This document shows positions 49,573 to 63,125 of a stretch of DNA of 64,000 bases, piece after piece (positions within the stretch are counted from its first letter, which is position 1; each line of letters opens with the position of its first letter). Source of the stretch: a bacterium (lineage in GTDB: Bacteria > Electryoneota > RPQS01); NCBI GenBank assembly GCA_023382385.1, contig JAHDVH010000001.1, positions 365,511-429,510 on the forward strand, read 5' to 3'. Below the pieces are notes generated by a model. It had not been told where the DNA came from. It saw only the letters and a program-made list of their open reading frames with translations, and did not search any database. The position numbers and the translations under genes are program-made.

Positions 49573-49646
49573 TAGCGGAGGAGGGACTCGAACCCCCGAC
49601 ACCAGGATTATGATTCCCGTGCTCTAACCAACTGAGCTACTCCGCC
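49573..49646 (-). tRNA. tRNA with anticodon CAT (Met, or Ile2 if lysidine-modified)
   Basis: The minus strand folds into a full 74-base cloverleaf: acceptor GGCGGAG with CTCCGCT (first pair G-U), a D-arm with GCTC/GAGC, anticodon stem CGGGA/TCCTG with loop ATCATAA, and a TTCGAGT T-loop. The anticodon is CAT. CCA is not encoded. Elongator Met and Ile(CAT) share this anticodon, and the sequence alone does not separate them with certainty; the overall sequence looks like an elongator Met tRNA. It has its own promoter and terminator. Confidence 0.95.
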
Positions 49647-52409: not shown

Positions 52410-53230
52410 GCCAGCGGGCGTTTCAGTCGATGAATTCCCAACGCCTTCCCGCTCGTTATGTCTGCATCCACAAGCACACCGTGCAAAATGATATCGCCGT
52501 CCGCCACGCCAGAACGCCCGCCTGCCATCGGGTGCAGGAAGCGATGCAGCGCGCTGGCCGTGTCCATACCGATTACTCCATTATGAGGACCTGTCATGCC
52601 AGCATCGGTAAGATAGGCGGTACCACCGGAAAGAATCTGCTCGTCTGCGGTTTGTACATGCGTATGAGTTCCGATCAGCGCGGTGACTGTGCCGTCAAGA
52701 AAACGCGCAAGGGCGAGTTTCTCGGCAGTCGCTTCGGCATGGAAATCCACCAAAACAAGTAGAGTCTGTTCGCGACACTGTTCCACAGCCTGTTTGCCAA
52801 GTCTGAACGGATCGTCTGAGGGCAGCATCATCGCGCGGCCGATGAGATTGATAATCGCCCACCTCACGCGCGGGGAGACTTCGACAATCGCCGATCCCCT
52901 TCCCGGGGCCTCATCAGGGAAGTTCAACGGGCGCAGCACGCGGCTGTTCTCTGCGATTGCCGCAAGCGACTTGTCCCGATAGAGCGTGTGATTCCCGCCA
53001 GACAGCACATCGGCGCCGGCATCAAACAGCTTGCGAATGATGCTCGGAGAAAGCCCTTTGCCGCCATCTGAGTTCTCAGCATTGACGACACACACATCTG
53101 AAGAGACTTCACGAAGGAGCCCGGGCAGCAAGGCTGTGACGGCCTTTTGACCGGGCTCTCCATACACATCTCCGATGAATAGCAGACGACTGGCGCCCGC
53201 AGGCTTACTTGGCAACGCCGGTGGCAACAA
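52406..53230 (-). CDS. YmdB-type metallophosphoesterase (TIGR00282 family)
   Basis: The 274-residue protein has LLFIGDVYGEPG (about 16-27), NAENSDGGKG with a metal Asn/Asp, GADVLSGGNHT and ALIGTHTHVQTADEQIL, then TDAGMTGPHNGVIGMD. These match the calcineurin-like phosphodiesterase family represented by B. subtilis YmdB, which hydrolyses cyclic nucleotides. In Firmicutes ymdB follows rny, as here, so a link to RNA or second-messenger metabolism is plausible. The start is TTG with GAGGGAG just upstream and overlaps the rny stop by 26 bases; a TTG five codons later is an alternative. Confidence 0.88.
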   Translation of the reverse strand: MLPPALPSKPAGASRLLFIGDVYGEPGQKAVTALLPGLLREVSSDVCVVNAENSDGGKGLSPSIIRKLFDAGADVLSGGNHTLYRDKSLAAIAENSRVLRPLNFPDEAPGRGSAIVEVSPRVRWAIINLIGRAMMLPSDDPFRLGKQAVEQCREQTLLVLVDFHAEATAEKLALARFLDGTVTALIGTHTHVQTADEQILSGGTAYLTDAGMTGPHNGVIGMDTASALHRFLHPMAGGRSGVADGDIILHGVLVDADITSGKALGIHRLKRPLA

Positions 53231-54770
53231 ACTCCCTCAATACGGTGACTTTGATTTGTCCGGGATACTCGAGTTCCTCTTCAACCCGCTTCGCAATATC
53301 TGCCGCGAGCGCTTCGGCCAATGCATCACTGACCTTTTGCGGTTCAACGATAATTCTGATTTCACGGCCAGCTTGAATTGCAAACGTCTTTTGGACGCCT
53401 TTGAAGCTGGAAGCGATTTCTTCGAGCTGCTGCAACCGCTTCACATACAATTCCAGCGTTTCACGACGTGCCCCTGGACGTGCTCCGGAAATCGCGTCCG
53501 CCGCCTGCACCAAAACACCGATAGGAGAAATGAACTCAGTATCATTGTGGTGCGCGGCAATAGTATTGATCACGATTTTCGGTTCACGATACTTCTTGGC
53601 AATCTCGACTCCAATCTCGACATGCGTTCCTTCGGTGTAGCGATCGATCGCTTTGCCGATATCGTGAAGCAGACCTGCGCGGCGCCCCATCTTCGCGTCG
53701 AAACCGAGCTGCGCGCACATTAAGGCAGAAAGGTGCGCTACCTCAATGGAGTGATGCAGAATATTCTGGCCGTAGCTCGTGCGGTATTTCAGACGACCGA
53801 CCAACTTGATCAGCTCGCGATGCAATCCGGTAACGCCAGCCTCAAGGCAGGCGGCATCACCAATCTGCATGAGCTTCTCATCCATCTCCTTTTCGATCTT
53901 CTTGACCAATTCTTCGATACGCTGGGGATGAATGCGGCCGTCTGCCATGAGTTGTTCGAGCGCAAGACGCGCGATTTCGCGGCGGTAGGGATCGAAGCCG
54001 GACACTACGACGGTTTCAGGAGTATCGTCCACGATAATGTCTACGCCGGTGGCCTGTTCGAAAGCGCGGATATTGCGGCCTTCTCGGCCGATGATGCGGC
54101 CCTTAATCTCGTCATTGGGAATGTGGACGACGGAAACCGTGCTCTCGACGCTGTGGTCCGCCGCGGAGCGCTGAATTGCGGAGACGATTATCTCACGGGC
54201 CTCACGATTGGCAGTTGCCTTGGCCTCATCGCGCATATTCTTAATCAGGTCTGCCGTGGCCGCACGCGCCTCACTCAGCAGCGACTCTTTGAGCTGTTCG
54301 AGCGCATCGTCCTTCGATAATCCGGCAGCCCGTTCCAATTCAGCCTGAGCGTGCTTTAGAGTCTCTTCGAGCTGGGTTTCCAGCTCGGCGACACGTTTCT
54401 CTTTCTGGGCATTCTGGCCGAGCAGACGATCGACTTCCTTACGCTTGCGTTCCGTTTCGTCGCGCACGTTCCGCAGATTGGCGTCCTTGTCTTTCAAAGA
54501 ACGTTCGTGCCGAGCGAGTTCGTCCCTTATCTCACGGATTTCATTTTCGAGCGCGGTGCGCTGGCGGAGTTGCTCGTCTCGAAGCTCGAGCATCTTTTCT
54601 TTGTACATCGTCTCAGCCTCTTTTTGGGCGTCGGCGACGATACGTTCAGCTTCCTGCTGGGAAGCAGCAATGCGCTCTTTGGTTATCGATCGACTGAGAA
54701 ACCAGCCGATAAGAAACGCCGCGATGCCGGAACCGGCGGCAAGCGCAACGACGAGAATTATATTGTCCAT
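53205..54770 (-). CDS. rny: Ribonuclease Y
   Basis: RNase Y is a membrane-anchored endoribonuclease starting mRNA decay. From ATG 54770 the protein is 521 residues: an N-terminal membrane helix (about 3-24), a long coiled coil (about 30-200), a KH domain (about 210-275, IKGRIIGREGRNIRAFE) and an HD domain (LLHDIGKAID at about 365, catalytic His-Asp). GGGGAG lies nine to ten bases upstream of this ATG, and a longer in-frame start lacks support. It follows a 6S RNA candidate and precedes a ymdB-type gene. Confidence 0.96.
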   Translation of the reverse strand: MDNIILVVALAAGSGIAAFLIGWFLSRSITKERIAASQQEAERIVADAQKEAETMYKEKMLELRDEQLRQRTALENEIREIRDELARHERSLKDKDANLRNVRDETERKRKEVDRLLGQNAQKEKRVAELETQLEETLKHAQAELERAAGLSKDDALEQLKESLLSEARAATADLIKNMRDEAKATANREAREIIVSAIQRSAADHSVESTVSVVHIPNDEIKGRIIGREGRNIRAFEQATGVDIIVDDTPETVVVSGFDPYRREIARLALEQLMADGRIHPQRIEELVKKIEKEMDEKLMQIGDAACLEAGVTGLHRELIKLVGRLKYRTSYGQNILHHSIEVAHLSALMCAQLGFDAKMGRRAGLLHDIGKAIDRYTEGTHVEIGVEIAKKYREPKIVINTIAAHHNDTEFISPIGVLVQAADAISGARPGARRETLELYVKRLQQLEEIASSFKGVQKTFAIQAGREIRIIVEPQKVSDALAEALAADIAKRVEEELEYPGQIKVTVLREFVATGVAK

Positions 54771-54787: not shown

Positions 54788-55004
54788 AAAAAAAAGAAAT
54801 CCCTGAATGGCAGAACGTGGTACCAAGAACCTGGTACAACACGGTGGGAATCCGCCTGCACGGTTTTCACTTCCACTATCCACATCCGTCCAAAGACGGG
54901 GGGAGCCCGCCGAAGCGGGTTAGGCTTGTGATAGACGCCAGAGTCAGACTCCCTATTCTTAGACTAATGGTTCTTGAATCAAGAATCTGCCAAGACAGGG
55001 ATTT
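54788..55004 (-). ncRNA. ssrS: Structured RNA, probable 6S RNA
   Basis: Between zapA and rny the minus strand can form one long rod. The 5' end AAATCCCTG pairs with CAGGGATTT at the 3' end (9 base pairs), and after a small internal loop TGGCAGA pairs with TCTGCCA (7 base pairs). Inside are the hairpins TTCTTG/CAAGAA, GTACCA/TGGTAC and a stable CCCGC-TTCG-GCGGG, and a CCGTC/GACGG stem. The 3' end is followed by a TTTTTTTT run, a terminator. Length about 208 bases without the tail. 6S RNA is about 180-200 bases with closed ends, and zapA is its common neighbour. No promoter of good quality was seen at the 5' end. This is a structural inference. Confidence 0.65.
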
Positions 55005-55088: not shown

Positions 55089-55409
55089 TTAAGCGCCAAG
55101 CTCGCGCAGTTTCTCATCGAGCACGCTCTCGAGCCTGCGTGCTTTTGACGTCACCAAACTTTCATGATCGGACAATTCAGACTGAGCCTCAGTCAGTTCG
55201 TGTGCGAGTTGCAGCGCCGCGAGCACAGCAAGTTCGCTGGCAGGCCGCGATCGATCCATCGTGTGAACGTTTCGCATTCGTTCATCCACGATTCCCGCCA
55301 CCCGATGCAAATACTCGGGTTCAGCGGTCCGTTGCAATCGATAGGCCCGATCAAAGATCGTCACAACCACAGCTTCTTCCTGATTGCTATCTCGAAGTAA
55401 GTCGGTCAT
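55089..55409 (-). CDS. zapA: Cell division protein ZapA
   Basis: ZapA binds FtsZ polymers and stabilises the division ring. The 106-residue protein has a short N-terminal beta domain (TIFDRAYRLQRTAEPEYLHRVAGIVDERM-type pattern, about 16-45, split here) followed by a coiled coil (about 60-105, LALQLAHELTEAQSELSDHE). AGGTG lies seven bases before ATG 55409; the GTG three codons upstream is less likely. It is downstream of a short coiled-coil gene, as in many bacteria. Confidence 0.9.
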   Translation of the reverse strand: MTDLLRDSNQEEAVVVTIFDRAYRLQRTAEPEYLHRVAGIVDERMRNVHTMDRSRPASELAVLAALQLAHELTEAQSELSDHESLVTSKARRLESVLDEKLRELGA

Positions 55410-62361: not shown

Positions 62362-62503
62362 GTGAGTACCTCTACGAACGGTAACTACAGTTAACCCAGT
62401 TTACAAATGACTGCATGCGACAACCCAATGAAACGAAACGCAAAGCAACAAGACAGAACTTCATTCAGCGTCACCATTGGGTCCAGCGTCCACGCTGGGT
62501 AGT

Positions 62504-62577
62504 GGGCGATACTAGATTCGAACTAGTGACCTCTTGCATGTCACGCAAGCGCTCTAACCAACTGAGCTAATCGCCCA
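62504..62577 (-). tRNA. tRNA-Val (anticodon GAC)
   Basis: A full 74-base cloverleaf: acceptor GGGCGAT with ATCGCCC, D-arm GCTC/GAGC, anticodon stem CTTGC/GCAAG with loop GTGACAT (anticodon GAC), T-loop TTCGAAT, discriminator A. CCA is not encoded. It is the last tRNA of the five-gene cluster. Confidence 0.96.
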
Positions 62578-62664
62578 AAAACAAATCAACCGGCAGAAGC
62601 CGGTACGCGCGACCGCAAGGGCAGACGAAGCAGGCGGCAGTAAGATCGCGACTGACGGCTATTG

Positions 62665-62750
62665 TGCCGGGAGCCGGACTCGAACCGGCACGGGAATTTT
62701 GTTCCCTGGGGATTTTAAGTCCCCTGTGTCTACCATTTCACCATCCCGGC
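62665..62750 (-). tRNA. tRNA-Leu (anticodon TAA)
   Basis: An 86-base cloverleaf with a long variable arm: acceptor GCCGGGA with TCCCGGC, anticodon stem GGGGA/TCCCC with loop CTTAAAA (anticodon TAA), T-arm GCCGG/CCGGC. CCA is not encoded. Confidence 0.96.
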
Positions 62751-62783
62751 CAACAGGAGTATGTTCGCGGAACGGATGCGGCT

Positions 62784-62858
62784 TGGAGGCGCCGAGCGGA
62801 TTCGAACCGCTGAATAGAGGTTTTGCAGACCTCCGCCTTACCACTTGGCTACGGCGCC
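62784..62858 (-). tRNA. tRNA-Cys (anticodon GCA), CCA encoded
   Basis: A 75-base gene with acceptor GGCGCCG with CGGCGCC, anticodon stem GAGGT/ACCTC with loop CTGCAAA (anticodon GCA), T-arm AGCGG/CCGCT, discriminator T then CCA in the DNA. Confidence 0.95.
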
Positions 62859-62942
62859 GTGCAGGACATCAGGCGGAGTTCGCACAGAGAGACGCCTTGC
62901 GAAGCCTAACCTTATTCCACGGCAAGGCCAACTTCCTGCGGT

Positions 62943-63017
<75 letters not shown>

Positions 63018-63049
63018 GAGAAAGAACCCAATACCAAACCGGGATCGTC

Positions 63050-63125
<76 letters not shown>

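Follow-up and report, generated by a model that had tools for sequence, protein, structure and literature searches.

The question raised by this locus is what is encoded on the minus strand between zapA and rny in the window (the whole stretch of 64,000 nucleotides that was analysed), for which the preliminary description proposed a probable 6S RNA. The upstream neighbour zapA lies at positions 55089-55409 of the minus strand (PF05164, 62 bits) and the downstream neighbour rny, encoding RNase Y, at 53205-54770 of the same strand (PF12072, PF00013 and PF01966), preceded by a Shine-Dalgarno-like GGGGAG at 54786-54781. Open reading frames overlapping the locus were disregarded, since its behaviour is that of an RNA.

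The closed rod claimed for the minus strand is present. The RNA proper occupies positions 54796-55004, and its length, taken from the RF00013 match and the closing-stem boundaries, is about 209 nt, typical 6S RNAs being about 160-210 nt. Its ends are joined by the closing stem P1 of 9 bp (5' strand AAAUCCCUG, 55004-54996; 3' strand CAGGGAUUU, 54805-54797) and a second lower stem of 7 bp (UGGCAGA, 54992-54986, with UCUGCCA, 54814-54808). The helix P2 is assigned from the alignment and helix pairing, with the 5' strand CAAGAACC at 54969-54976 and the 3' strand GGUUCUUG at 54824-54831, and the upper stem, helix 4 of the hand-written structure, consists of GGGAGUCU (54946-54953) and GGAUUCCC (54846-54853). 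The apical hairpin CCCGC-UUCG-GCGGG, also described beforehand, is found at 54919-54906 on the minus strand and is variable among relatives. The U-run said to follow the rod is a tract of eight U residues (54795-54788, minus strand) directly 3' of the closing stem, a possible terminator or processing site, and a U-rich tail is present in most relatives. A terminator scan at the locus found nothing because the closing stem is long-range, and upstream of the RNA no sigma-70 promoter scored above chance (mean score 7.5, against 6.9 +/- 1.2 for shuffled sequences). For the 217-nt strand the folding energy is -81.4 kcal/mol, compared with -62.6 +/- 5.1 kcal/mol for dinucleotide shuffles (z -3.67), and none of 200 shuffles was as good. 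When the RNA of the window's genome folds freely, local hairpins are favoured over the state containing P2 by 2.0 kcal/mol, which counts against the 6S reading.

The comparison with the Rfam 6S model that the preliminary description recommended gave a match over the full length of RF00013 (positions 1-187) on the predicted strand, yet with only 27.0 bits and an E value of 0.0015, the latter referring to a scan of 601 bases against all 4227 Rfam families. This is below the curated gathering score of the family, 46.4 bits, which is a curation cut-off and not a biological trait. 6S was the only RNA-polymerase-binding family matched in the Rfam scan. At the gathering threshold, Rfam reported only tRNAs in the window; five tRNA genes stand within 630 bases at 62503-63125 on the minus strand, and a sixth at 49573-49646. 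The search of the window's whole genome with RF00013 listed no match, neither at the locus nor elsewhere. Taken alone, the match is an unaccepted hit and is suggestive; since the RNA's own score is sub-threshold, its membership in the 6S family has to be argued from relatives.

Equivalent regions were pulled from 41 genomes via RNase Y. With RF00013 at a relaxed threshold (cmscan), the same gap was matched in many genomes of this set, two of them marginally over the cut-off. A covariance model, R1, was built from 28 aligned RNAs taken from zapA-rny gaps, one of which (L020) comes from outside the phylum. R1 finds the locus in 37 of 39 genomes of the phylum, whereas the RF00013 cut-off is passed at the orthologous locus in 6 of them, and by 0.1 bit in a seventh (G015) in a scan of its locus only (L026). 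Of the two genomes missed by R1, G004 has a completeness of 56%, and in G005 the contig with rny starts within that gene. Since the training set of R1 comprises 28 of these loci, only matches outside it are independent; they include G024, G027, G030, G033 and G036 of family f5, G014 and G019 of f4, G037 of f3 and G021 of f8. The score of the window's own RNA with R1, 142 bits, belongs to a sequence within the training set. The RNA of G021 (L019) has a longer and different closing stem, CGGGAUG..GGCUGCGG with CCGCAGCC..CAUUCCCG, and therefore R1 matches it at positions 32-174 only. Two genomes classed outside the phylum, G039 (L020, L095) and G092 (L096, L109), carry 6S RNAs at 113-118 bits with R1, far above the other outside genomes, although L020 is in the R1 training set. 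Neither RF00013 nor R1 found a second 6S RNA elsewhere in the window's genome.

Compensatory changes in relatives, named beforehand as a check of the proposal, were found. Among the 28 aligned RNAs the GAACC and GGUUC blocks are invariant and the GGGAG and CCCA blocks nearly so, while the stems are variable. With the hand-written structure, 88.0% of the cells pair in the 28 sequences versus 82.6% after shuffling, and none of 500 shuffles was as high; when the partner was slid by one column, pairing fell to 50-53%. Twelve pairs show changes on both sides. The shuffle control ignores relatedness, and therefore swapping of the closing stems is the stronger test. These stems differ by family (UCCCUG/CAGGGA, ACCCGCC/GGCGGGU and CCCCUGCG/CGCAGGGG) and keep their complementarity. 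In f3 the closing stem is one column out of register in the automatic alignment, and so the stem was tested by duplexes: native pairs have a mean of -17.4 kcal/mol, against -10.9 kcal/mol with ends swapped between families. The rod, with its closed ends, central bubble and upper stem, is thus preserved by compensatory change.

The relation to accepted 6S RNAs is given by the RF00013 match and by R1 across phyla. In Acidobacteriota and Nitrospinota, loci near or upstream of rny score 60-94 bits with RF00013, over the cut-off, and for seven of these eight R1 gives a match at identical coordinates, with E values between 5.7e-8 and 0.0075, a homology in both sequence and structure. The gene neighbourhood is likewise that of 6S RNA. 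In the window the gene order by Pfam is pheT-zapB-zapA-6S-rny, then a ymdB-like gene; the acidobacterial locus L035 has zapA-6S-rny, and the Nitrospinota locus L042 has pheT-zapB-zapA-6S-5-FTHF cyclo-ligase-rny, the gene between 6S and rny in the latter (L042:2334-2918) being a 5-formyltetrahydrofolate cyclo-ligase. In beta- and gamma-proteobacteria the reported order is zapA-ssrS-(ygfA), and annotation of ssrS there is inconsistent, conceivably from divergence (PMC7641849); ygfA adjoining 6S has been reported from several groups (PMC9130861). The zapA and cyclo-ligase neighbours of the Nitrospinota RNA agree with these reports on ssrS (PMC7641849, PMC9130861). The gene order of L042 is intermediate between zapA-ssrS-ygfA and zapA-6S-rny.

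The position of the RNA directly upstream of rny, seen in most relatives as well, together with a U-tract and Shine-Dalgarno sequence no more than 30 nt from the rny start in the window, would also suit a structured 5' leader of rny, such as one for attenuation or for autoregulation of RNase Y, and not a free RNA. Two nearly complete genomes, G014 (100% complete) and G019 (98% complete), decide against this: neither has a match to RNase_Y_N, and both keep the RNA in the arrangement pheT-zapA-6S-ymdB (L099 and L100), so that the leader reading was rejected. In both, ymdB directly follows pheT-zapA-6S as if rny had been excised. The cyclo-ligase gene separating the RNA from rny in Nitrospinota and the agreement of the fold with 6S also speak against a leader, which we consider very improbable. 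Just as improbable is a 6S-like RNA of the Ms1 type; Ms1 of Actinobacteria has a related rod structure and binds the core polymerase in the absence of sigma (PMC9130861). The polymerase partner of the window's RNA is itself only predicted, but of the RNA-polymerase-binding families 6S alone gave an alignment, the GAACC core, which resembles a template, does not vary, and the flanking genes are the ones known from 6S. Complementary segments that arose by chance between two genes would fit the Rfam score under the curated cut-off, but this reading is ruled out by the fold (z -3.67), by the occurrence of the RNA in 37 of 39 genomes and by the compensatory changes.

Four things are thereby in place for the locus: homology, conservation of the paired structure, synteny and persistence where rny is absent. 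The identification as 6S RNA is based on the first three of these, from which a 6S-like working would be inherited. With 37 of the 39 genomes carrying the RNA, six of them above the RF00013 cut-off, the reading of the preliminary description is supported, and the minus strand of 54796-55004 most likely encodes 6S RNA. We put the probability at about 95% that the region is the genome's single detected 6S RNA gene (ssrS), whose product would form a rod mimicking an open promoter and let the polymerase go by pRNA synthesis.

In E. coli and B. subtilis, 6S RNA mimics an open promoter and is the template for pRNAs, and its refolding frees the polymerase; release involves an extended 3' bubble hairpin in E. 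coli and a collapse helix in B. subtilis and Aquifex (PMC8876501, PMC12005410, PMC4227106). By analogy, the transcript of about 209 nt would fold into a rod of closing stems, P2 (CAAGAACC/GGUUCUUG), central bubble and upper stem, and would sequester the housekeeping sigma-RNA polymerase as growth slows. When nucleotides rise, the polymerase would initiate in the bubble and copy AAGAACCA into pRNA, which would open P2 and free GGUUCUUG, so that the 3' strand could fold its own hairpin and the polymerase be released. Binding of polymerase and its release by a pRNA templated from AAGAACCA are probable. The most conserved blocks lie in AAGAACCA, the template strand, and in GGUUCUU, with which it pairs, and the P2 5' strand, the predicted pRNA template, has GAACC invariant in 28 of 28 aligned sequences. 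From the B. subtilis pRNA GUUCGGUCAAAACUA, starting 5'-GUUCGGUC... (PMC12005410), we infer a pRNA start opposite U54966 +/-2, and the pRNA would begin near 5'-AAUGGUUCUUG in the window's own genome or 5'-GUUGGUUCUU in relatives.

Folding of the bubble strands differs between families. In the RNAs of the window's order (f1/f2), the 3' strand alone folds at -9 to -14 kcal/mol, using the P2 3' strand; in the window this is the hairpin CGUG-UU-GUACCAGGUUCUUGGUAC-CACG (54816-54843, minus strand), which cannot coexist with P2 and is predicted to serve in release, so that the design expected for the order is the E. coli one with a 3' release hairpin. A 5' central-bubble hairpin (54954-54987, minus strand, in the window) holds the predicted template in its loop; its arms occur in four different sequences in the order, each self-complementary, and exchanging arms between subgroups weakens the pairing (native versus swapped: -11.0 versus -4.8, -6.1 versus -4.3, -6.7 versus -3.1 and -8.0 versus -6.5 kcal/mol). 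The AGAACC of this 5' loop could kiss the GGUUCU of the 3' hairpin loop. Family f3 has no strong 3' hairpin (mean -6.3) and possesses a second AGAACC copy that can pair with GGUUCU (mean -8.8), the majority of nine sequences beating their shuffles with p of about 0.05 or better; a collapse-helix design is predicted here, in which the second copy, in the distal 5' bubble, would capture GGUUCU once the pRNA has been made, as in B. subtilis and Aquifex. All these results are folding predictions uncorrected for multiple tests. In the comparison of the two designs the f5 averages are void, since GGUUC is missing from two of the f5 sequences, as it is from one outside sequence, and L099 and L010 were cut at wrong motifs. 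It is possible, but somewhat doubtful, that one phylum holds two release designs, a 5' hairpin with E. coli-like release in f1/f2 and a collapse helix in f3; if true, this would provide a natural comparison of polymerase release by 6S RNA.

The window's RNA belongs to a known kind, of which it is a new and divergent member. A whole uncultured phylum has 6S RNA that Rfam largely overlooks, its cut-off being passed in 6 of 39 genomes as against 37 of 39 found with R1, and a conclusion from Rfam alone that 6S is absent would be wrong in this phylum. The orders zapA-6S-rny and zapA-6S-cyclo-ligase-rny tie the locus to the proteobacterial zapA-ssrS-ygfA.

Compared with the 6S/SsrS RNAs of RF00013, the window's RNA shares the full-length alignment, the rod, the central bubble, the CCCAC-type upper-stem motif and the zapA neighbour; it differs in exceeding the model by about 20 nt, for the most part in the apical hairpins, and in having a hairpin in the 5' bubble strand. 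Like the 6S RNAs of Nitrospinota and Acidobacteriota (L037, L042, L035 and others) it is near rny and is found by both models, and zapA is also upstream in L035, L037 and L042, the loci tested for it; unlike it, those RNAs have much higher Rfam scores, and in L042 the cyclo-ligase gene stands between 6S and rny. With ssrS of E. coli it has in common the upstream zapA and the extended 3' bubble hairpin, here predicted once P2 opens (PMC8876501), whereas downstream there is rny instead of ygfA, and the free RNA is predicted to carry the template within a 5' hairpin. The collapse helix of B. subtilis 6S-1 is predicted in f3 and not in the window's order, while the position of the pRNA template would be alike in the two RNAs, GACCGAAC aligning with GAACCAAC.
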